64,000 nucleotides of DNA. Source: Desulfovibrionaceae bacterium (lineage in GTDB: Bacteria > Desulfobacterota > Desulfovibrionia > Desulfovibrionales > Desulfovibrionaceae). A program made the translations under genes and the position numbers. The DNA lies in assembly GCA_015709205.1 (NCBI GenBank), contig JACCQO010000012.1, forward strand, positions 31,083-95,082, read 5' to 3'. Positions within the stretch are counted from its first letter, which is position 1. Every line of letters starts with the position of its first letter. A model generated the notes under the pieces. That model was given only the letters and a program-made list of their open reading frames with translations, was not told where the DNA came from and searched no databases. Of the stretch, positions 40,929-50,124 are shown piece after piece.

Positions 40929-41173
40929 AAATATGAAACCCCGGGATTTTTTGTCCGATTTTAATTGACTTTGAAAATCAACTTCATTAGGTTTCGACCC
41001 TGTTCCCGGGGCTCGCCCGGAATCGAAAGAGTCGTGCCATGTTTGATGTCTGCAATCCTCGATTTTTATCCCAACAAGGCGGCCTTGCTGCGGTTGGCGG
41101 CATTTGAGGGGCTTGAGCGCATCGGTGCGGCGCCGCGTCCTCGTGTCCTCAACTGTAAACGTGCAAATTTCTC

Positions 41174-41192: not shown

Positions 41193-41306
41193 CGACGTAA
41201 TCGCCTTGTTGATGTGCCGCGCCCGTTGATGCCGTGATGCATGGGGCAACGCTTTGTGGCGCCGCAAGAACTCTATGACCCCGTAAGAAGAGCAAGGAGG
41301 AGTGGA

Positions 41307-43610
41307 GTGGGTATCTGCCATGAGATCGGATCTGTGCTTCAAGGATTTTTCCGTACGGGTGCCCTTGGCGCGGCGCAGGCGTTTGCCGCAGACCGCGTAC
41401 GGCGTGCGATGTTTCTCGCGGCCTTGGCCCTGACCCTTGGCGGGACGGTGCTGTGCGGCCCCGTCCATGCCGCCGGGGCGGAGGAGGGCGAACCGTGCCG
41501 GGTGACCATTCCGGCGGGGAGCCTCGAGGATGCCCTGACGGCCTTCGGGACCCAGTGCGGCCTGAATTTGGATTTCGACGCCGCAGCCCTGGCCGGGCGG
41601 GGCGTCGCGGGCCTGAACGGGACGTTCGCCGTGGTTGAGGGGCTGGCCTTGCTGCTGGAGGGCACGGGCCTGCGCGCCGAGGTCGAAGCCTCCGGGCGCG
41701 TGACCCTGGTGGCCCGGAGCACCACCGCCGAGGAGGAGACCGTGCTGCCCAAGATGACCGTGCAGGGCGAGCCCATCGGCACCCACGAGATTCCCGTGGA
41801 GAAGATCAAGCGCAGCATGGCCAAGGACATGGCCGACGTGTTCGAGAACGACCCCTCGGTGATCGTTGGCGGCGGCGCGCGCAACGCGCAGCGCGTCTAC
41901 GTGCGCGGGGTGGACGCCGTGAATCTCAACGTGACCATCGACGGTGCCAAGCAGGGCGGCAGCCTGCACCAGCATCGCGGTGACATCGGGGCCATCGACC
42001 CCATGCTGCTCAAGCGGGTGGCCGTGCAGACGGGCTCCAGCGCCGACGCGGGCCCGGGCGCCCTGGGCGGCAGCATCCGCTTCGAGACCGTGGACGCCCA
42101 GGATCTGCTGGAGCCCGGCGAGAGCCTCGGCGCCATGGTCACCGGCGGTTTCGCCAGCGCGGACGAGTCCTGGACCGGCGGCGGCTCGGCCTACGGCGTG
42201 TTTGACGAGAACTTCGGCCTGTTGGCGCACTTCTCGGCCACAGACCGCGACGACTACACCGTGGGCGGAGGGGGCGAGGCGCCCAACACCGCCGGTGAGG
42301 ACTACGACTACTTCATGAAATTCAGCATGCTTGAGCGCCAGGGCCACAGCCTGCGCCTGAGCGCCGAAAACAAGCGCGACTCCGGGCTCTACGTCTGGGG
42401 GAGCGACGGCAGCGACATGGGCTACGCCGCCTCGGGAGTCGACCCGGTCTACGTCAGCACCGAGCGCACCAGCCTGGTCTTCGACCACCGCTACCACGAA
42501 AACAACCCGCTGCTGGATACGCGCGTCAACGCCTATTACACCCAAAACTCCGTGGACAACGAGGACGGCGACTCCGAATACGCCGCGAACGTGCTGGGCT
42601 ACGACCTGCGCAACACCTTCCACCTGGCCCTGGGCGACGTACTCCTCGACCTGACGGCGGGCGGCGACGGCGTGGCCGAGGAGAACACGGCCGAGGTGAG
42701 CGGCGACGACACCTCCAACGACTCCCACAACCTCGGATTCTACATCCAGAATCGTCTCAGCTACGGACCCGCGCGCCTGTCCTTCGGCGCCCGGTTGGAC
42801 GCCTACCGCGCCGAATTCGGCGAGGGCACCATCCAGGGCAGCCGCGTCTCGCCCAGCGTGGGACTGGAATACGACCTGCTGGAGGACCTGACGGCCTTCG
42901 CCGGCTACGGGCAGGCCGTGCGCGCCAGCGGCACGCTGCCCGGTTCCTGGATGGCGAACATCGACGGCGCCACGAAGTTCGACGTCGACGCGCCCGAGAC
43001 CTCCCAGCGCTACGAGGGCGGCCTGCGTTACCGGAAGGCCGGGGTTTTCCGGCCCGACGGCCAATTGAATCTGGAAGGCTCGGTTTTCCAAAGCCGTCTG
43101 AAGAACGTCATCACCGCCGTGGGCGGCAAGGGCGGGGTGGTCAAGCAGATCCTGAACTCCGATCCCCTGATCTCCAAGGGCTGGGAAGCCCGCGCAGGCT
43201 GGGGCTTCGAGCCGTTCGAGACCTCCCTGGCCTACACCCACGTGATCACGCGCGACGCGAACGACGAGCCCGTTTCCGTCACCCGTCGTCTGGTGGCCGC
43301 CTCCGGCGATCGCCTGACCTGGGACAGCCGCTTCCGGCCCCTGGAGAGCCTGACCCTGGGCTACACCATGAGCTACGTGGCCGAACTGACCGACGTGCCC
43401 GACGGCACCGAAGACCGCCCCGGCTACGTGCTACACTCGGTGCAGGCCGAATGGCGGCCCCAGTGGGTGCCCGGCCTGGCCCTGAATCTGGCCGTGCACA
43501 ATCTCGCCGACCGCCGCTACAGCGAACAGACCAGCATCCTTGACAGCAACGGCGACGCGCTGCTCGAGCCCGGGCGCGACATCCGCCTGGGCCTCACCTA
43601 TCGCTTCTAG
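41307..43610 (+). CDS. TonB-dependent outer-membrane receptor, heme-receptor type, with STN domain
   Basis: This 767-aa receptor starts at a GTG at 41307 with AAGGAGG 6 bp upstream; the longer frame lacks such a site. A signal peptide (RRAMFLAALALTLGG, cleavage near VHA-AG) is followed by an STN domain (~60-130) as in receptors that signal to anti-sigma factors, a plug domain (~150-270) and a beta-barrel ending in the aromatic LGLTYRF. Plug segments such as VYVRGVDAVNLNVTIDGAKQ and GPGALGGSIRFETVDAQDLL are very similar in style to heme/hemoglobin receptors (inference from motif memory). No FecI/FecR pair is adjacent despite the STN domain. It heads the iron/heme operon and is preceded by Fur-like sites. 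Confidence 0.88.
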   Translation: MGICHEIGSVLQGFFRTGALGAAQAFAADRVRRAMFLAALALTLGGTVLCGPVHAAGAEEGEPCRVTIPAGSLEDALTAFGTQCGLNLDFDAAALAGRGVAGLNGTFAVVEGLALLLEGTGLRAEVEASGRVTLVARSTTAEEETVLPKMTVQGEPIGTHEIPVEKIKRSMAKDMADVFENDPSVIVGGGARNAQRVYVRGVDAVNLNVTIDGAKQGGSLHQHRGDIGAIDPMLLKRVAVQTGSSADAGPGALGGSIRFETVDAQDLLEPGESLGAMVTGGFASADESWTGGGSAYGVFDENFGLLAHFSATDRDDYTVGGGGEAPNTAGEDYDYFMKFSMLERQGHSLRLSAENKRDSGLYVWGSDGSDMGYAASGVDPVYVSTERTSLVFDHRYHENNPLLDTRVNAYYTQNSVDNEDGDSEYAANVLGYDLRNTFHLALGDVLLDLTAGGDGVAEENTAEVSGDDTSNDSHNLGFYIQNRLSYGPARLSFGARLDAYRAEFGEGTIQGSRVSPSVGLEYDLLEDLTAFAGYGQAVRASGTLPGSWMANIDGATKFDVDAPETSQRYEGGLRYRKAGVFRPDGQLNLEGSVFQSRLKNVITAVGGKGGVVKQILNSDPLISKGWEARAGWGFEPFETSLAYTHVITRDANDEPVSVTRRLVAASGDRLTWDSRFRPLESLTLGYTMSYVAELTDVPDGTEDRPGYVLHSVQAEWRPQWVPGLALNLAVHNLADRRYSEQTSILDSNGDALLEPGRDIRLGLTYRF

Positions 43611-43645: not shown

Positions 43646-44452
43646 ATGTTCAAAGGACTTCTTGTGCTGCTCCCCGCGCTGCTGCTCGCGGGGTTTGCCC
43701 CGGCCGCCCCGGCCCGTGCGGCGGATACCGGGCGGCTCTACCTCGTGGGCCTGGGCGTGGGTGACCGCGACAACATGACCCTGCGCGCCCAGAAGATCGT
43801 GGCCAAGGCCGACGTGGTCTTCGCCATGAAGAGGATGCTCAAGGACTACGCCGAGATGCTGGAAGGCAAGGATCTCTACGACGCCGGGCATGGCCTGTTC
43901 GCCTCTTTCGGGCGGCGCGGCGGGGACAGCTCCGCCCTGGAGGCCCAGGCGCGCAAGGTCATCCGCAAGGCCGTGGCCGAAGGCAAGACCGTGGCCATCC
44001 TCGACGGCGGCGACCCCATGATCTACGGCCCGCACACCGGGTTCCTCACGGAATTCGCGGACCTCAATCCCGAGGTCGTCCCCGGGGTGTCCAGCTTCAA
44101 CGCGGCCAACGCGGCCCTGTTGCGCGGCGTGGCCAGCGGCAAGGTCAGCCATTCGGTGATCCTCACGGCGGCCTTCGGCGTCCGCGAGGGCTACACCGGC
44201 AAGGACACCCTGGCCGAACTGGGCAAGACGCAGTCCACCATGGTCTTCTTCACCATGGGCATGAACCTGCCCGAGGTGGTGGAGCAACTCAAGCGGAGCT
44301 ATCCCGCCGACACGCCCATCGCCATCGTTTCCTATGCCGGATATCGCGACAAGGAGCAGGTGCTGCGGGCGACCCTGGACACCATTCTTGAGCGGAGCGG
44401 CGGCAAGTTGCCCTTCGAGCACCTGATCTACGTCGGAGACTTCCTGAAATGA
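43646..44452 (+). CDS. Exported tetrapyrrole-methylase-fold protein
   Basis: This 268-aa protein begins with a clear signal peptide (MFKGLLVLLPALLLAGFAPA, cleavage near ARA-AD). The mature part is a tetrapyrrole (precorrin) methylase fold: LYLVGLGVGDRDNMT with the GxGxGD-type SAM loop, GKTVAILDGGDPMIYG, VVPGVSSFNAANAALL and a C-terminal segment with PIAIVSYAGYRDKEQVLRATL. Cytoplasmic cobalamin and siroheme methylases need SAM, which is not known in the periplasm, so this exported version may instead bind or modify tetrapyrroles during uptake. It follows a heme-type TonB receptor by 35 bp with AAGGAG, and overlaps the permease gene by 4 bp. Confidence 0.85.
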   Translation: MFKGLLVLLPALLLAGFAPAAPARAADTGRLYLVGLGVGDRDNMTLRAQKIVAKADVVFAMKRMLKDYAEMLEGKDLYDAGHGLFASFGRRGGDSSALEAQARKVIRKAVAEGKTVAILDGGDPMIYGPHTGFLTEFADLNPEVVPGVSSFNAANAALLRGVASGKVSHSVILTAAFGVREGYTGKDTLAELGKTQSTMVFFTMGMNLPEVVEQLKRSYPADTPIAIVSYAGYRDKEQVLRATLDTILERSGGKLPFEHLIYVGDFLK

Positions 44453-45966
44453 CGAGCCAACCGGCTGGCACGGGCGTCCTGAAGCGCGAGATCGGGCTGG
44501 GTTCGGCTCTGACCCTGGTGGTCGCCAACATGGTGGGCACCGGCGTCTTCACCACGTCCGGCTTCATCATGGTGGAGCTGGGCAGCGCTCAGGCGCTGCT
44601 GCTCTGCTGGCTGGTGGGCGGCCTGTTCGCCCTGACCGGCGCCCTGTGCTATGCCGAACTGGGGGCGATGATGCCGCAGGCCGGCGGTGAATACCGCTAC
44701 CTGCGGCGGACCTTCGGACCGCTGCCCGCCTTTCTCTCGGGCTGGATTTCCCTCATCGTGGGGTTCTCCGCGCCCATCGCGGCGGCGGCCATCGCGTTCG
44801 CCACGTATGCTTCGAGTGGCGGACGCGACCCCTGGTTCGTCCTGAACGTCTTCGGCAGGCCCACCTTCACCTTCTCGCCCGCGACCCTGCTGGCCGTGGG
44901 CGTGGTGGTGGTCCTGTCCCTGGTGCATTACCACAGCGTCGGCCTAGGGCGGCGGGTGCAGAATCTGCTCACGATCTTCAAGATCGGCGTGATCCTGCTC
45001 TTCGCCCTGGGCGGACTCTGGCTCGGCAGCGGCGACGCCGGGCGGTTGGCCGGGGTGTTCACCTCCGGCGCGGCCGCGGGCGCGGTCTTCAGCCGGAAGT
45101 TCGCCGTGGCGCTGATCTTCGTGTCCTTCGCCTACAGCGGCTGGAACGCCGCGGCCTACCTGGGGGCGGAGATCAAGCGCCCCGAACGGAACATCCCCCT
45201 GGCGCTCATCGCCGGAACGGTCATCGTCATCGGCCTGTATCTGCTGCTCAACGTGGTCTATCTGTACGCCCTGGCTCCCGGCGAAATGGCCGGGGCGCTG
45301 GACCTCGGCGTCCTGGCGGGCGCGGCCCTGTTCGGCCCCGGGGTGGGCCGGGCCGTGGGCATGATCGTCGCCGTGGCCCTGTTGTCGGTCATCAGCGCCA
45401 TGGTCATGGCCGGGCCCAGGGTCTATTACGCCATGGCTTGCGACGGGGTCTTCTTCAAGTGTTTCCGTCAGGTGGACCGCACGCGCAGCACCCCCGGCAA
45501 GGCCATCCTGCTCCAGGGCGCGCTGGCGGTGCTGATGATTCTTTCGGCCACCTTCGAGACGCTGCTCATCTACATCGGCTTCACCCTGTCCCTGGCGTCC
45601 GTCCTCACGGTCTGCGGGCTCGTCAAGCTGCGCCTGACCGACCCCGACGCGTCCAGGCCCTACCGCACCCTGGGCTATCCCCTTACGCCGCTGCTGTTTT
45701 TGGCGGGCAACGCCTGGATCGTCGTGCACTCGCTGCTGGAGCAGCCCGTGGCGGGGCTCTATGGCCTGGGCACGGTGGTGCTTGGGGCGCTGTGCTACGG
45801 GCTGTTCCGGCCCGTGGGCGGGGCACCCGTCCCGGGCGCGGGCGAGGGCGAGCCCAAGGCCGGGACGGCGCGGGAGAGCGAGCTGGCCTCGGTTCCCGTG
45901 GCGGCGGGATTTTCCCTCGACGCCTCGTCCGACGCCTCTACCGGAGAAGCCGGCCGGAACTGGTAA
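44449..45966 (+). CDS. APC-superfamily amino-acid/polyamine-type permease
   Basis: This 505-aa inner-membrane transporter has about 12 helices. The first (LGSALTLVVANMVGTGVF) carries the GxGIF-like unwound substrate site, and the helix with AYSGWNAAAYLGAEIKRPERNIP is the usual APC consensus. A polar, probably disordered tail (~460-505) ends the protein. It starts with a 4-bp overlap (ATGA) on the exported methylase gene, so it belongs to the receptor operon. Its substrate is unknown. An amino-acid permease in an iron or heme operon is unusual; it may move a metal chelate or peptide, but that is speculation. Confidence 0.88.
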   Translation: MTSQPAGTGVLKREIGLGSALTLVVANMVGTGVFTTSGFIMVELGSAQALLLCWLVGGLFALTGALCYAELGAMMPQAGGEYRYLRRTFGPLPAFLSGWISLIVGFSAPIAAAAIAFATYASSGGRDPWFVLNVFGRPTFTFSPATLLAVGVVVVLSLVHYHSVGLGRRVQNLLTIFKIGVILLFALGGLWLGSGDAGRLAGVFTSGAAAGAVFSRKFAVALIFVSFAYSGWNAAAYLGAEIKRPERNIPLALIAGTVIVIGLYLLLNVVYLYALAPGEMAGALDLGVLAGAALFGPGVGRAVGMIVAVALLSVISAMVMAGPRVYYAMACDGVFFKCFRQVDRTRSTPGKAILLQGALAVLMILSATFETLLIYIGFTLSLASVLTVCGLVKLRLTDPDASRPYRTLGYPLTPLLFLAGNAWIVVHSLLEQPVAGLYGLGTVVLGALCYGLFRPVGGAPVPGAGEGEPKAGTARESELASVPVAAGFSLDASSDASTGEAGRNW

Positions 45967-45998
45967 AATTTCCCCCCGTCGGGCGGTAGCTTTTGGAT

Positions 45999-46029
45999 GA
46001 AAATGATTGTAGTAATCATCCTCATTTTC
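45999..46029 (+). promoter_or_regulatory. Fur-box-like palindrome before the Ton operon
   Basis: GAAAATGA (45999-46006) and TCATTTTC (46022-46029) are perfect inverted repeats, nested with TGATT-GTAGT-AATCA (46004-46018). The spacing and sequence resemble overlapping Fur hexamers. It lies 42 bp before the DUF3450 start and inside an otherwise GC-rich region. Confidence 0.6.
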
Positions 46030-46071
46030 GGCTGCCGAAAGATTGGGATCGTCCAAGCAAGGAGAGAGGAC

Positions 46072-46839
46072 ATGCAGACGCGAATCCTGGCCGCCGCACT
46101 GGCGGCCGCGATTCTGTCCGGCGCGATGGTGGTGGGCGCCAGCGCGGACATGACGGCCCGGGAGGCCGACCAGACCCTGCGTTCGGCGGCCAGGACCCAG
46201 GCCGCCGCCCAGGCCGAGGCCGACCGCTGGGGCCAGGAGCGCGAAGCGCTTTCCGCCGAGGAGCGGCAACTGCTCGTGCGCGAGGAATGGCTCGGCTACC
46301 AGATCGCCAAGCACAAGGCCTACATCGCGGGGGAAAACGCGGCCATCGAGGACCTTCGCCAGCGCAAGGAGACCTTCATCGCCGTGCGCCAGGAGCTGGA
46401 GCCCCTGCTGGACGCCCTGGCCGGGCGGCTGGAGCGGGTCGTGGCGGCCGACATGCCCTTTCTGCCCGGGGAGCGCGCCGCGCGCCTGGAACACCTGCGC
46501 ACCGCCCTGGACGACTACCATTTGGCGCTGGCCGAGAAGCTGCGCCGGACCTTGGAGGCCCTGCGCATCGAGGCCATGTACGGCGAGCAGGTGGAGGTGA
46601 CCGACGAAGCGTTGGCGCTGGACGGCCAGGAGGTCCAGGGGCGCGTGCTGCGCCTGGGCCGGCTTGGCCTGTATTGCCTTCTCCCCGACGGGCGCGCCGG
46701 CATGTACGACACCCAGGCCCAGGCGTGGCGCGTGCTGCCCGCGGGCGTGGGCGGCGAGCTGGCCAAGGCGGTGGAAATCGCCGGACGCCGCCGGGTGGTG
46801 GAACTGATCGCCTTGCCCGTGCCGCGGGTTCAGCCATGA
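46072..46839 (+). CDS. DUF3450 periplasmic protein of the TonB2-type system
   Basis: This 255-aa protein starts at ATG 46072 with GGAGAGAGGA upstream. A signal peptide (MQTRILAAALAAAILSGAMV, then ASA) is followed by a long coiled coil (~35-140) and a compact C-terminal domain (GLYCLLPDGRAGMYD, AWRVLP). It matches DUF3450, regularly encoded with TonB2-type energy-transducing systems. It probably lies in the periplasm between the ExbB fusion and the envelope. The stop overlaps the start of the ExbB fusion by 3 bases. Its frame is open back into the Fur-like palindrome, but that region is regulatory. Confidence 0.87.
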   Translation: MQTRILAAALAAAILSGAMVVGASADMTAREADQTLRSAARTQAAAQAEADRWGQEREALSAEERQLLVREEWLGYQIAKHKAYIAGENAAIEDLRQRKETFIAVRQELEPLLDALAGRLERVVAADMPFLPGERAARLEHLRTALDDYHLALAEKLRRTLEALRIEAMYGEQVEVTDEALALDGQEVQGRVLRLGRLGLYCLLPDGRAGMYDTQAQAWRVLPAGVGGELAKAVEIAGRRRVVELIALPVPRVQP

Positions 46840-48323
46840 AGAGGAGAGCCAAGGGAATGACCAAGGCGGCGTTGCCGATTGTGGTGTGGTGCCTGGGGCT
46901 GGCGCTCTGGGCCGGGGCTCCGGCACCGGAGGCGCTGGCCGCCGAGGGCGATTGGGGGCGGGCGGGGGCGCAGGTGCGCCAACGCAGCCAGGAAATGCGC
47001 GACGACGCGGCCGCCGTGCGCCAGGACGTGGCGAGCGACCGCAAGCGGACGACCATGACCGTGGTCGAGCGCCGGGCGCGGGTGCGCACCCTGGAAAAGG
47101 AGTACGACGCCCTGGTGAAAAATCTCCAGGAGCGCGTGCGGGAGCGGGCCCGGATGGAGGCCGACCTCGAGGCCGAACAGGAGGGCATGCGGGCCCTGGA
47201 GGGCACCATCCGCCAGTCCGCCAAGGACGCCGACAAGATGCTTTCGGGCAATCCGCTGACCGCCTTGGCTCCCGAGCGTCGCGCGGTGGTGGACGGGCTG
47301 CTGGAAAACCACGCCTTCCCCGACATGGTCACCATCGGCCGCCTGGCCGACGTGTTTCTGGACGAGGTGGTCCTCACCGGGGGAGTGCGCCTCCGCCAGG
47401 GCGAGTATGGCGGGCCCGACGGCGCGCGGCGCACGGGCGAGATCCTGCACGCGGGCCGTTTCGGCACCTTCTTCCGCGCGGCGGACGGCGAGGTGGGCGT
47501 GCTGGCCGCCGGCGCCGACGGCCTGGACCTGCGGGCCCTGCCCGATGCGCTGCCCCGGTCCGCCCGTTCGGACGTGGAGGACTTCTTCGACGGCCAGGGA
47601 GGAGTGTTGCCCCTGGACGTGGCCGACGGCGCGGCCTTCCGCCGCAATGCGTCCAGCGACGGCGCATGGGACTGGCTGCGCTCGGGCGGGTTCCTGGTCT
47701 GGCCCATCCTGCTGGTGGGGCTGGTCGGCCTGGGGCTGGGGCTGGTGCGCTTCATCACCCTGGGCTCGTCGCGGGCCTTCTCCGAATCGCGCATGCGCGA
47801 GGTCGTGGAACGGGTGGAGCGCGGCGAGTTCACCAAGGCCAGGGAGTATTGCGCGCAGGGCAGGAAGTTCCCGGCCTGTCGCGTGCTGGGCCGCGCCCTG
47901 GACCATGTGGGCCTGAACCAGGAGGTGCTGGAAAACGCCCTCCAGGAGGCCATCCTCCAGGAACTGCCCCGGCTGGAGCGCTTCCTGCCGTCCATGCAGA
48001 TCCTGGCGGCCATCGCGCCGCTGCTTGGGCTGTTGGGCACGGTGACGGGCATGATCAACACGTTCCAGGTCATCACCCTGTTCGGCACGGGCGATCCCCG
48101 GATGATGTCCGGCGGCATCTCCGAGGCGTTGATCACCACCCAGCTCGGCCTGGCGGTGGCCATTCCCATCATGGTCCTGCACCATTTCCTGGAGCGCCGG
48201 GTGGACGTGGTTCTGGGCGACATGGAGCAGAAGGGCACGGCCTTCACCGTGACCCTGCTCAAGGCCGGGGCCCTGGCGGCCCACGGGGACAACGTGTTCC
48301 TGCGGAGCATGGAGGAGGCGTGA
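46836..48323 (+). CDS. ExbB/TolQ proton-channel protein fused to periplasmic domain (TtpC-type)
   Basis: This 495-aa protein has a signal-like N-terminus (~1-30), a periplasmic coiled-coil domain (~35-140) and a globular segment (~140-270), then a MotA/TolQ/ExbB domain with three membrane helices (first near WPILLVGLVGLGLGLVRF, second and third within APLLGLLGTVTGMINTF and GLAVAIPIMVLH). The fused periplasmic part distinguishes it from ordinary ExbB and matches TtpC-like members of TonB2 systems. Together with ExbB, ExbD and TonB it should couple the proton gradient to receptor opening. Overlaps at both ends show strict translational coupling. Confidence 0.87.
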   Translation: MKRRAKGMTKAALPIVVWCLGLALWAGAPAPEALAAEGDWGRAGAQVRQRSQEMRDDAAAVRQDVASDRKRTTMTVVERRARVRTLEKEYDALVKNLQERVRERARMEADLEAEQEGMRALEGTIRQSAKDADKMLSGNPLTALAPERRAVVDGLLENHAFPDMVTIGRLADVFLDEVVLTGGVRLRQGEYGGPDGARRTGEILHAGRFGTFFRAADGEVGVLAAGADGLDLRALPDALPRSARSDVEDFFDGQGGVLPLDVADGAAFRRNASSDGAWDWLRSGGFLVWPILLVGLVGLGLGLVRFITLGSSRAFSESRMREVVERVERGEFTKAREYCAQGRKFPACRVLGRALDHVGLNQEVLENALQEAILQELPRLERFLPSMQILAAIAPLLGLLGTVTGMINTFQVITLFGTGDPRMMSGGISEALITTQLGLAVAIPIMVLHHFLERRVDVVLGDMEQKGTAFTVTLLKAGALAAHGDNVFLRSMEEA

Positions 48324-49003
48324 TGGACGTGGCATCCCTGCTGGCCAACAGCGGCGCCTATCTGGCGCGCGGCGGCTGGATCATGGTGCTCATCCTCGGG
48401 CTGTCCTTGTGGATGTGGCTGCTCATCGGCAGGCAATGGCATCTGCTGCGCAGCAACAGCTCGCTGGAAAAGGGCGTGGGCGAGTGCCTGCGCCACGCCG
48501 GGGAGCCCGGCTTCGCGGCGGCGCCCTGGCAGCTTCAGTTGCTCGAAGCCGCCGAGGCCGCCCGGAGTCTGCGCGCGCGCATGCGCAAGCGCTATCTGGA
48601 GGCCCAGACCGCCAGCGTGTCCCTGAGCTTCCAGCGCCACACGGGGACCATCCTCATGCTGGCGGGCGCCGCGCCGCTGCTCGGCCTCCTTGGGACGGTG
48701 ACGGGCATGATCGACACCTTCGACATCATCGCCGTCCACGGCACGGGCAACGCCCGGGGCTTGGCCTCGGGCATCTCCGTGGCGCTGGTCACCACCCAGG
48801 CCGGGCTGGTGACCTCCGTGCCGGGGTTGGCGCTGGGGCTTTTTTTGCGGCGGCGCGCGGCCCGTGCCAGCGAGCGGGTGGTCCGCTTCACCCATGGGCT
48901 CATGCTGGCGGGGGGCGAGAGGCCGGGGCGGAGGGCCCGCGTTTTTTCCGCGGCCGCGAAAGCCCGTTCGGCCACCGCGAAATCCAGCGAGGAGGAGGCA
49001 TGA
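48323..49003 (+). CDS. exbB: ExbB biopolymer transport protein
   Basis: This 226-aa inner-membrane protein is a standard ExbB/TolQ member. The first helix is ARGGWIMVLILGLSLWMWLL, and the conserved APLLGLLGTVTGMIDTF segment holds the proton-path helix, with SGISVALVTTQAGLVTSVPGLALGLFL as the third helix. The C-terminal tail is basic and Ser/Ala-rich. It follows the larger ExbB fusion with TGATG overlap and overlaps exbD by 4 bp. Having both a fused and a plain ExbB in one operon is characteristic of TonB2-type loci. Confidence 0.92.
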   Translation: MDVASLLANSGAYLARGGWIMVLILGLSLWMWLLIGRQWHLLRSNSSLEKGVGECLRHAGEPGFAAAPWQLQLLEAAEAARSLRARMRKRYLEAQTASVSLSFQRHTGTILMLAGAAPLLGLLGTVTGMIDTFDIIAVHGTGNARGLASGISVALVTTQAGLVTSVPGLALGLFLRRRAARASERVVRFTHGLMLAGGERPGRRARVFSAAAKARSATAKSSEEEA

Positions 49004-49413
49004 ATTCCATCCGCTACAGCCGGGCGCGGCGCTCGGGCGGCTCGGACATCAACATGGCGCCGCTCATCGACATGATCTTCATTCTGCTCATCTTCTTCCT
49101 GGTGACCACGAGTTTCACCAAGGAGTCGGGCGTGGACGTGGAGCGGCCCGTGGCCGCTTCGGCCCAGACCAAGGAGCAGACCAACATGGTCATCGGCATC
49201 GACAAGGACGGCCTGGTGCACATCGAAAACCGCGTGGTGGACGTGCGCGCGGTACGCGCGGTGATGGAGCGCTTCCTGGCCGAAATTCCCGAGGGCTCGG
49301 TGGTCATCGCCGCCGACCGGGCCAGCATCACCGGCGTGGTCATTTCCGTGCTCGACGCCTGTCGCATGGCCGGGGTCAAGCACGTCAGCGTGGCCGCTCG
49401 CCGGCCGTCGTAG
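49000..49413 (+). CDS. exbD: ExbD biopolymer transport protein
   Basis: This 137-aa protein has the standard ExbD layout: a short basic cytoplasmic N-terminus, one membrane helix (MAPLIDMIFILLIFFLVTTS) with the proton-binding Asp in PLIDMIF, and a periplasmic domain ending in KHVSVAARRP. GGAGGAGG lies directly upstream. It forms the ion-driven motor with ExbB and TonB and overlaps exbB by 4 bp. Confidence 0.95.
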   Translation: MNSIRYSRARRSGGSDINMAPLIDMIFILLIFFLVTTSFTKESGVDVERPVAASAQTKEQTNMVIGIDKDGLVHIENRVVDVRAVRAVMERFLAEIPEGSVVIAADRASITGVVISVLDACRMAGVKHVSVAARRPS

Positions 49414-49431: not shown

Positions 49432-50124
49432 ATGAGCGCATGTGCCTGTTGCCTGGCCTCGCCCCTGCCGCGTTCGCGCGTCTGGAGCTGGACCTGCGGG
49501 GTGCTTCTGGCCCTGGTCATCAACGCGGTGCTGTTTTTGGGCATTCCGTGGCTGACCGAGCGGGACGACGCCACGGCCGAGCGGGAATACGAGGGCGCCG
49601 TGCTGCTGGCGGCCAGCCCCGAGCCACCGGCGGAGGTGGAGCCCGAGCGGCCTCGGCCCGAGCGGGAGCTGCCGCCGCAGTTGCCCGACCTGGCCTCGCC
49701 GCCCACGCCCCAAACTCCCCAACCCCCGGAAACCGTGCGGTTCGAACTGGCCCTGGACACGCCGACGCTCAACGGGGCCACGATGGTGGCGCCCCTGGTC
49801 GAGGCGCCTCCGGCGCCGCCCCTGTCCGGGCCACGGCTGTTCGAGGTCGGCGAGGTGGATACGGCGCCCCGCGTTCTGCGCGGCGCTCCGCCCAGCTATC
49901 CCTTCCACGCCCGGCGCCAGGGCATCGCCGGTCGGGTGGTGGCCCGTTTCCTGGTGGATGCCAAGGGGGGCGTCAGCCAGATTTCCATCGTGGAGGCCAC
50001 GCCCAGGGGCGTGTTCGACGCCAGCGTGCTTCAGGCCGTGGCCCGCTGGCGCTTCAGCCCCGGCATGCTGGAGGGCGTTCCCGTGAACACCTGGGTCGTG
50101 GCGCCCTTCGAGTTCAAGCTGTGA
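49432..50124 (+). CDS. tonB: TonB energy-transducing protein
   Basis: This 230-aa protein has an N-terminal Cys-rich stretch, an inner-membrane anchor (~18-40; WTCGVLLALVINAVLFLG), a Glu/Pro-rich periplasm-spanning linker (~60-110) and a C-terminal TonB domain (~150-230) with SYPFHARRQGIAGRVVARFLVDAKGG, VFDASVLQAVARWRFSP and the terminal PFEFKL. It contacts the TonB box of outer-membrane receptors. It overlaps the downstream TPR gene by 4 bp. The short linker suggests either a narrow periplasm or cooperation with the DUF3450 and TPR partners. Confidence 0.93.
   Translation: MSACACCLASPLPRSRVWSWTCGVLLALVINAVLFLGIPWLTERDDATAEREYEGAVLLAASPEPPAEVEPERPRPERELPPQLPDLASPPTPQTPQPPETVRFELALDTPTLNGATMVAPLVEAPPAPPLSGPRLFEVGEVDTAPRVLRGAPPSYPFHARRQGIAGRVVARFLVDAKGGVSQISIVEATPRGVFDASVLQAVARWRFSPGMLEGVPVNTWVVAPFEFKL

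Follow-up and report, generated by a model that had tools for sequence, protein, structure and literature searches.

Background

As far as we know, class III (tetrapyrrole) methylases are SAM enzymes of the cytoplasm only. The window analysed here, a 64-kb stretch of DNA from a member of the Desulfovibrionaceae, encodes a protein of this family that appears to begin with a signal peptide and whose gene lies between those of a TonB-dependent receptor and an amino acid permease, which raises the question of what a methylase of this kind could be doing in the periplasm. The titles and abstract openings of the matches listed from the open-access literature describe neither an exported tetrapyrrole methylase nor a receptor-methylase-permease module; one paper names, among tabulated expression data, a protein of the tetrapyrrole methylase family without reference to export (PMC3646045). 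The exported methylase branch and its module are apparently undescribed, and the fold and each of the partner families are already known. In this study, the window gene, its relatives and their neighbours were analysed, focusing on export, distribution, gene context, possible ligands and the SAM pocket.

Results and discussion

The methylase gene and its operon

The features of the window discussed below, with the evidence for each, are as follows.

40971..40987, + strand: candidate delta-proteobacterial Fur box TTGAAAATCAACTTCAT, upstream of the receptor gene (consensus match)
41241..43610, + strand: TonB-dependent receptor, 789 aa as called, with plug, barrel and a weak STN domain (PF00593, E 2.4e-34; PF07715, E 4.3e-15)
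43646..44452, + strand: predicted exported tetrapyrrole-methylase-family protein, 268 aa, mature form about 243 aa (PF00590, E 2.2e-44)
43646..43720, + strand: predicted signal peptide of the methylase, 25 codons (hydropathy and an A-x-A site, by inspection)
44449..45966, + strand: APC-superfamily amino acid permease, 505 aa, start overlapping the methylase stop in ATGA (PF13520, E 6.8e-52)
45997..46839, + strand: DUF3450 protein, true start probably a little downstream of 45997 (PF11932, E 1.6e-63)
46836..48323, + strand: long ExbB-like protein (similarity to ExbB-like proteins of other loci, inspection)
48323..49003, + strand: second ExbB-like protein (inspection of the translation)
49000..49413, + strand: ExbD-like protein, start approximate by inspection (similarity to ExbD-like proteins of other loci)
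49432..50124, + strand: TonB-type protein (PF03544, TonB_C, E 2.9e-21)

A preliminary description of this DNA had placed at 43646..44452 a protein with the GxGxGD and GGDP motifs of precorrin methylases behind a clear signal peptide, and both parts of that statement hold. The ORF scores 152.4 bits against the PF00590 (TP_methylase) cut-off of 27.8 over residues 30-247, covering positions 1-211 of the 212 in the profile, with GLGVGD at residues 35-40 and GGDP at residues 121-124, and it has no other Pfam match at E <= 0.001. Its N-terminus, MFKGLLVLLPALLLAGFAPAAPARA followed by ADT after the presumed cleavage site, has a short basic start, a hydrophobic core and an A-R-A end, and is by inspection a signal peptide of the Sec type. 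Over 12 residues its hydropathy peaks at 2.70, whereas seven cytosolic members of the family do not exceed 1.84. The ATG is preceded at about 7 nt by AAGGAG, a good ribosome-binding site. A start codon downstream of the signal-like segment, which the same description had named as evidence against export, was looked for and is absent ahead of the domain: ATG, GTG or TTG codons occur in frame at positions 1 and 7 and then at 34, 38 and 44, with none in the stretch from the signal to the domain's first strand, and the objection from an alternative start therefore fails.

Among 25 of the 32 matched NCBIfam models that were listed, there is none whose curated cut-off the methylase reaches. It resembles CbiF/CobM in belonging to PF00590, in giving its best sequence match there and in sharing the GD(P), PG-S and P-A-A motifs, but differs in its signal peptide, in its receptor-permease operon and in its score, TIGR01465 (cobM/cbiF) being the closest curated model among the matches listed at 112.7 bits against a cut-off of 259.65. 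The uroporphyrinogen III methyltransferases CobA, CysG and NirE likewise share its fold and SAM-pocket motifs, whereas the window protein is predicted to be exported, has Met61 at the position of their presumed catalytic Asp and scores 83.2 against the 185 bits required by TIGR01469 (SUMT). The closest solved structures are precorrin-4 C11-methyltransferases (PDB 4e16, 1cbf and 3ndc), and a plasmid search with the methylase gave three matches at 33-35% identity, two of them annotated as cobM. An AlphaFold2 model built on the six-sequence alignment A1 (pLDDT 60, pTM 0.53) was too poor to use. The source genome has five other PF00590 genes, with CobA, CobM/CbiF and CbiH among them above their curated cut-offs and the separate CobM reaching 300.3 bits against TIGR01465, and the idea that the window gene stands in for a missing B12 gene was ruled out on this ground. 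As far as its sequence indicates, the window methylase is not a biosynthetic precorrin methylase.

The position of the methylase between a receptor and a permease, noted previously, was confirmed by Pfam, the methylase gene starting 35 bp after the receptor gene. The receptor ORF has no in-frame stop, its true start is likely to be M57 (41409), which opens a signal-like segment, and its STN match is below the cut-off (PF07660, 22.8 against 28.4 bits). It had been called heme-type, and its best NCBIfam model is indeed TIGR01785 (TonB-hemin), but at 242.2 bits it misses the cut-off of 316.85, and the receptors that accompany the methylase elsewhere include other classes, among them a selenocysteine-type one. 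The FRAP/NPNL box, which we take to be the motif of heme receptors in the region where they bind their cargo, is absent from the window receptor, and YGQAVRASGTLPGSW...VDAPETSQRYEGG stands in its place. The selenoprotein-type models NF049944-NF049947 do not appear among the eight families listed for this receptor at E <= 0.001. The permease scores 177.3 bits against the PF13520 cut-off of 27, and none of the window genes examined was recognised as an ABC importer. Vibrio-type TonB sets comprise an extra ExbB-like protein and DUF3450, and the window is similar to them in having, by Pfam and inspection, DUF3450, two ExbB-like genes, an ExbD-like gene and TonB in line after the permease.

The operon had also been described as apparently Fur-controlled. 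The E. coli Fur consensus, whose best upstream match was 14 of 19 positions and was reached by 7 of 500 shuffles of the region, was replaced by the delta-proteobacterial consensus WTGAAAATNATTTTCAW as given in PMC545781. The candidate box matches 13 of 15 positions of the core of the latter, with the N position counted as a match, which makes it the best site of the 64 kb, and its score was reached by 3 of 2000 shuffles of the 900-bp upstream region. Fur control of the window operon is plausible on this evidence, but it is not conserved across relatives. As a family trait it was rejected: among 38 loci, only the window, L053, L056 and L057 have sites reached by 5 or fewer of 200 shuffles, and the candidate site of L056 falls within a called ORF.

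Distribution and architecture of the exported branch

A profile search of 395 Desulfobacterota genomes gave matches in 51 at E <= 1e-30, a threshold at which weaker members are missed. Eleven of the 51 had a partial CbiF-like match only and were excluded by match extent, and the two of these that were read (L082 and L083) are cytosolic. As a result, a full-length match was recorded for 40 of the 395 genomes, the source genome included, and 33 of the 40 were read. Forty regions were taken, comprising 36 with branch members, L082 and L083 as controls, and two from a search of closer relatives (G127 and G116). A protein scan of GTDB contigs returned five records 42-70% identical to the window methylase, originating from a Desulfovibrio MAG (70%), two Geobacter MAGs with two tandem methylase copies each, a Desulfobacterales MAG and a Thermoguttaceae (Planctomycete) MAG, and the signal-like N-terminus is kept in every copy of these records. 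The copy in the Thermoguttaceae MAG (L015:7884-8783, + strand) is an exported relative that has neither receptor nor permease in the five genes on either side.

The signal peptide seen in the window recurs across the branch, a strong hydrophobic segment being present within the first 57 residues of 49 of 51 branch ORFs (peak hydropathy of at least 1.99, against at most 1.84 in the cytosolic controls). The exceptions are L084, which is preceded by a separate ORF with a signal-like start, and L051. The latter gene (L051:3790-4497, - strand), from a genome of the window's own family, is a branch member with neither signal peptide nor receptor nor permease; a return to the cytoplasm and a truncated gene are both possible. 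In a quick tree, the 55 branch domains all fell on one side of a single branch with a modest support of 72. Branch proteins consist of one domain, of two tandem domains (about 550-590 residues, six ORFs) or of a methylase with DUF4198 fused in front (L052), and in L064 and L074 an Oxidored_molyb-like part is fused N-terminal to the methylase domain. The last two are exported proteins of about 600 aa with a C-terminal methylase domain (L064:2163-3911, + strand; L074:7985-9823, - strand), and ORFs of similar length in L075, L077, L078 and L079 resemble them by inspection.

Among 150 relatives of the window's family and order, four genomes, the window's own included, had a match at E <= 1e-20; in G084, one of the three besides the window's, the protein matched is CobA-HemD-like. 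The branch is therefore patchy near home, and the idea that vertical descent has conserved it in the family of the window was rejected on these counts.

Neighbouring genes and the linked permease

Conservation of the receptor-methylase pair had been proposed as a check on this locus, and the pair does recur. Within five genes of the branch gene, a TonB receptor is present in 41 of 48 loci, a permease in 26, DUF4198 in 23 and FmdE in 6, the 48 loci being partly dependent, with L012 and L013 near copies of each other and several loci drawn from some single genomes. When five loci fetched for their permease are left out, the corresponding counts are 36, 21, 22 and 6 of 43. The permease is absent within five genes in 22 of the 48 loci, and the window itself has neither DUF4198 nor FmdE within five genes of the methylase. 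Within five genes of L051 there is neither receptor nor DUF4198 nor permease, and the permease type is missing from its genome. The predicted export of the methylase and its membership of this module are well supported.

The permease type occurs in 35 of the 40 genomes with a full-length methylase match and in 51 of the 355 without one (Fisher 3e-21), a presence count that leans towards linked permeases because ten linked sequences went into the permease model; the distance result is less affected. By distance, the permease lies within 1.5 kb of the methylase in 24 of the 40 genomes and within 12 kb in 27, and a rough estimate puts the chance expectation of a permease within 3 kb at about 0.1 genome. 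The window permease is the sole PF13520 match of its source genome at E <= 1e-15, and G127 and G420 likewise have one PF13520 permease only, the linked one. A second, unlinked permease is present in G194, G213 and G276, and the single permease of G317 is 10.6 kb away. In five of the 40 genomes the permease model matches nothing. One of these five (G311, locus L073) has a signal-bearing methylase with a receptor and a DUF4198-like gene; the permease is therefore dispensable, or replaced, there.

Linked and unlinked rows interleave on the permease tree, though none of 500 shuffles clusters the linked label as strongly. The linked state requires 10 changes, at least 8 of them forced by the starred branches, and the pairing of methylase and permease has therefore been gained or lost many times. 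A private clade of linked permeases was considered and rejected, given the interleaved rows and the 51 genomes that have the permease without a full-length methylase match. Close relatives of the permease are unlinked in 32 of 58 rows, so the window permease may be an ordinary amino acid carrier.

Two further observations concern SAM and its products. In L071, a nucleoside-hydrolase-like protein (PF01156; L071:6345-7490, + strand) with a signal-like start is encoded between the receptor and the exported methylase, and its substrate could be an adenosine product, SAH for example. A SAM riboswitch was looked for as a clue to the permease, and none was found at gathering score in the window stretch and 45 loci, L015, L051 and L143 being left out.

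Clues to the ligand

The suggestion that the module deals with a tetrapyrrole gained ground from several relatives. The receptors of the closest ones (L011, L012 and L046) are heme-like, with 235 to 286 bits and none reaching the cut-off of 317; a gene of the ChaN family (heme-binding uptake) follows the permease in L012; and a cobalamin riboswitch of 103.8 bits (L055:12179-12369, - strand) lies on the coding strand directly upstream of a receptor and a two-domain exported methylase. Besides the window, 45 loci were scanned, and L055 is the one in which such a riboswitch precedes the receptor-methylase pair; none was found in the window between 38000 and 52000. The same genome as L055, G317, carries a second cobalamin riboswitch at L046:5729-5920 (- strand), downstream of the methylase and before a 668-aa ORF. 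The heme-like receptors, the ChaN neighbour and the riboswitch point to tetrapyrroles. Desulfovibrio vulgaris CbiK, which we take to be a periplasmic chelatase, offers an analogy in that a tetrapyrrole-pathway protein is exported in a Desulfovibrio relative and tied to uptake, but the window methylase contains no chelatase domain, PF00590 being its sole Pfam match.

Other clues point elsewhere, namely DUF4198, the CbiMQO-like neighbours in L053, FmdE and the selenoprotein-type receptors. We take DUF4198 to be a family linked to nickel/cobalt transport, and the differences between loci in their neighbours (FmdE, DUF4198, Oxidored_molyb fusions) could point to metals. In L053, CbiM/CbiQ/CbiO-like genes (cobalt/nickel ECF transporter, by inspection; L053:2730-4824, + strand) precede a receptor fragment, a two-domain exported methylase, DUF4198 and the permease. 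Eight partner receptors are split into pairs of ORFs, and in seven of them (L052, L060, L061, L062, L076, L081 and L085) an in-frame TGA stands at the split, five times in the context RLPCP-U-DYYWWARC; these seven are predicted selenoproteins, with the predicted selenocysteine site near the FRAP/NPNL region by inspection. In L130, the first receptor piece likewise ends in RLPCP. A tRNA-Sec gene (RF01852, 56.1 bits; L085:5305-5392, - strand) is situated just upstream of the predicted selenoprotein TonB receptor and exported methylase of L085. The unsplit receptors of L014, L056 and L080, which have no in-frame stop, reach scores of 734 to 811 with the FCYXU selenoprotein receptor model, whose cut-off is 825. 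The partner receptors of several relatives resemble the selenoprotein-type TonB receptors (FCYXU, CU, PUIUD and PCPU; NF049944-NF049947), matching below cut-off or being split at TGA, whereas the window's own receptor is of another type. In passages of PMC12013277 and PMC13188914, some selenocysteine-type TonB receptors are given without cargo, and the word 'tetrapyrrole' is absent from the main text of either paper.

Conservation of the SAM pocket

Over the 55 branch domains, the most conserved columns include G37, P124, G147 and A156 (55 of 55), G122, A231 and G232 (54), D123 (53) and P146 (50), and several of these fall within the SAM-pocket motifs of the PF00590 family. In the window methylase, the motifs GD(P), PG-S/T and P-A-A/G are represented by GGDP, PGVS and PIAIVSYAG. 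The place of the SAM-pocket motifs in this group speaks against a fold that has fully degenerated and been turned to binding. This conservation favours continued binding of SAM, or of something of like shape, by the predicted pocket, and the retained glycines and prolines may be structural.

SAM-contact positions were mapped from those reported for CysG in UniProt. The nine contacts presumed on this basis have a mean conservation of 0.66, against 0.49 over 238 columns; the equivalent of Pro225 is Pro in 32 of 55 domains, that of Thr331 is Ser in 37 and Gly in 17, and that of Met382 aligns poorly. Asp248 of CysG is presumably the catalytic Asp; its column holds Met61 in the window methylase and is variable across the branch, and Asp is absent from the CbiF/CobM rows too. 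K75 is conserved in 52 of 57 rows.

A proposed mechanism and its alternatives

The methylase family, the predicted signal peptide, the gene order, the recurrence of the module and the conservation of the SAM-pocket motifs are established at the level of sequence. To account for them we put forward, tentatively and with rather less than even confidence, that an exported class III methylase takes part in TonB-powered uptake, where it binds SAM and probably methylates an imported tetrapyrrole, the SAM being supplied by the permease. The receptor would carry a tetrapyrrole-type molecule, presumably heme- or corrinoid-like, across the outer membrane, with energy from the ExbB/ExbD/TonB set encoded alongside. 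The exported methylase would hold this ligand in the usual cleft between its two lobes with SAM still bound, and the putative methyl transfer would most likely take place in the periplasm. The APC permease, in itself a strong clue to function, would bring SAM over the inner membrane and probably return SAH by exchange, SAM and SAH being its supposed cargo. Candida Gap4 is reportedly an amino-acid-permease-type SAM carrier and provides a precedent for this role. The joint absence of signal and module partners in L051 fits the proposed model, but the model is weakened by modules that have no permease, such as that of G311, and by permease relatives found on their own. An extended version, which is speculative and in our view unlikely to hold as a whole, is a periplasmic SAM economy in which APC SAM/SAH exchange would feed an exported methyltransferase that C-methylates heme or a corrinoid, so that the ring would be dearomatised or marked and the metal or ring recovered with no ABC importer, the device having been recombined repeatedly with different receptors, predicted selenocysteine ones included, across Desulfobacterota.

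The nearest rival to this uptake-linked methylation is a non-catalytic periplasmic tetrapyrrole carrier, in which the methylase fold would receive heme or a corrinoid from the receptor and the SAM pocket would be structural or would hold part of the ligand, e.g. the adenosyl group of adenosylcobalamin. We know of no demonstrated source of periplasmic SAM, which speaks for a carrier, as do the unconserved position of the CysG catalytic Asp, the variation at some SAM-contact positions, the cobalamin riboswitch ahead of L055 and the location of the gene directly after the receptor, a place that would suit a periplasmic binding protein. Such a carrier is nevertheless harder to reconcile with several SAM-pocket motif columns being 96-100% conserved in the branch, where relaxed re-use predicts otherwise, with the amino acid permease in 26 of 48 loci and with the lack of a recognised ABC importer among the window genes examined, and we consider it possible, on the unlikely side. 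The DUF4198 genes of 23 of 48 loci, with their presumed nickel/cobalt link, the FmdE genes of 6 of 48, the CbiM/CbiQ/CbiO-like genes adjoining the L053 module by inspection and the predicted selenocysteine beside Cys-Pro in partner receptors would instead suit the uptake of nickel, cobalt or another soft metal on a small chelator, which the exported protein would methylate or bind and whose amino-acid-like part the permease would carry; the window, however, has no DUF4198 or FmdE within five genes and a receptor nearest to heme receptors, and this reading appears distinctly unlikely.

Two other explanations concern the methylase itself. The wider fold also covers diphthine synthase and rRNA methylases, and periplasmic methylation of a non-tetrapyrrole substrate (a peptide, siderophore or protein) was considered for this reason. 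It would agree with the lack of any curated precorrin methylase cut-off reached among the 25 models listed, and with the DUF4198 and Oxidored_molyb fusions that suggest other partners in some lineages, but the nearest sequence relatives are precorrin-4 methylases and the riboswitch, ChaN and heme-like receptor context is one of tetrapyrroles, which leaves this explanation with a slight chance. That the protein is an ordinary cytoplasmic precorrin methylase with a falsely signal-like N-terminus is hardly credible: the fold is indeed that of cytoplasmic enzymes and the relative in L051 has no signal, but the signal segment is found in 49 of 51 branch ORFs, the window methylase has no alternative start and the source genome already possesses CobA, CobM/CbiF and CbiH above curated cut-offs.

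Conclusions

The recurrence of an exported methylase branch together with TonB receptors and, frequently, a permease would mean one of two things: SAM gets into the periplasm, or the fold leads a second life without catalysis. Some of the selenocysteine-type TonB receptors gain a partner gene set from the association. The observations hint at modification or carriage of heme- or B12-like compounds in the periplasm of some sulfate reducers, and the module gives genetics a way into the recovery of heme and corrinoids by bacteria that reduce sulfate or metals.
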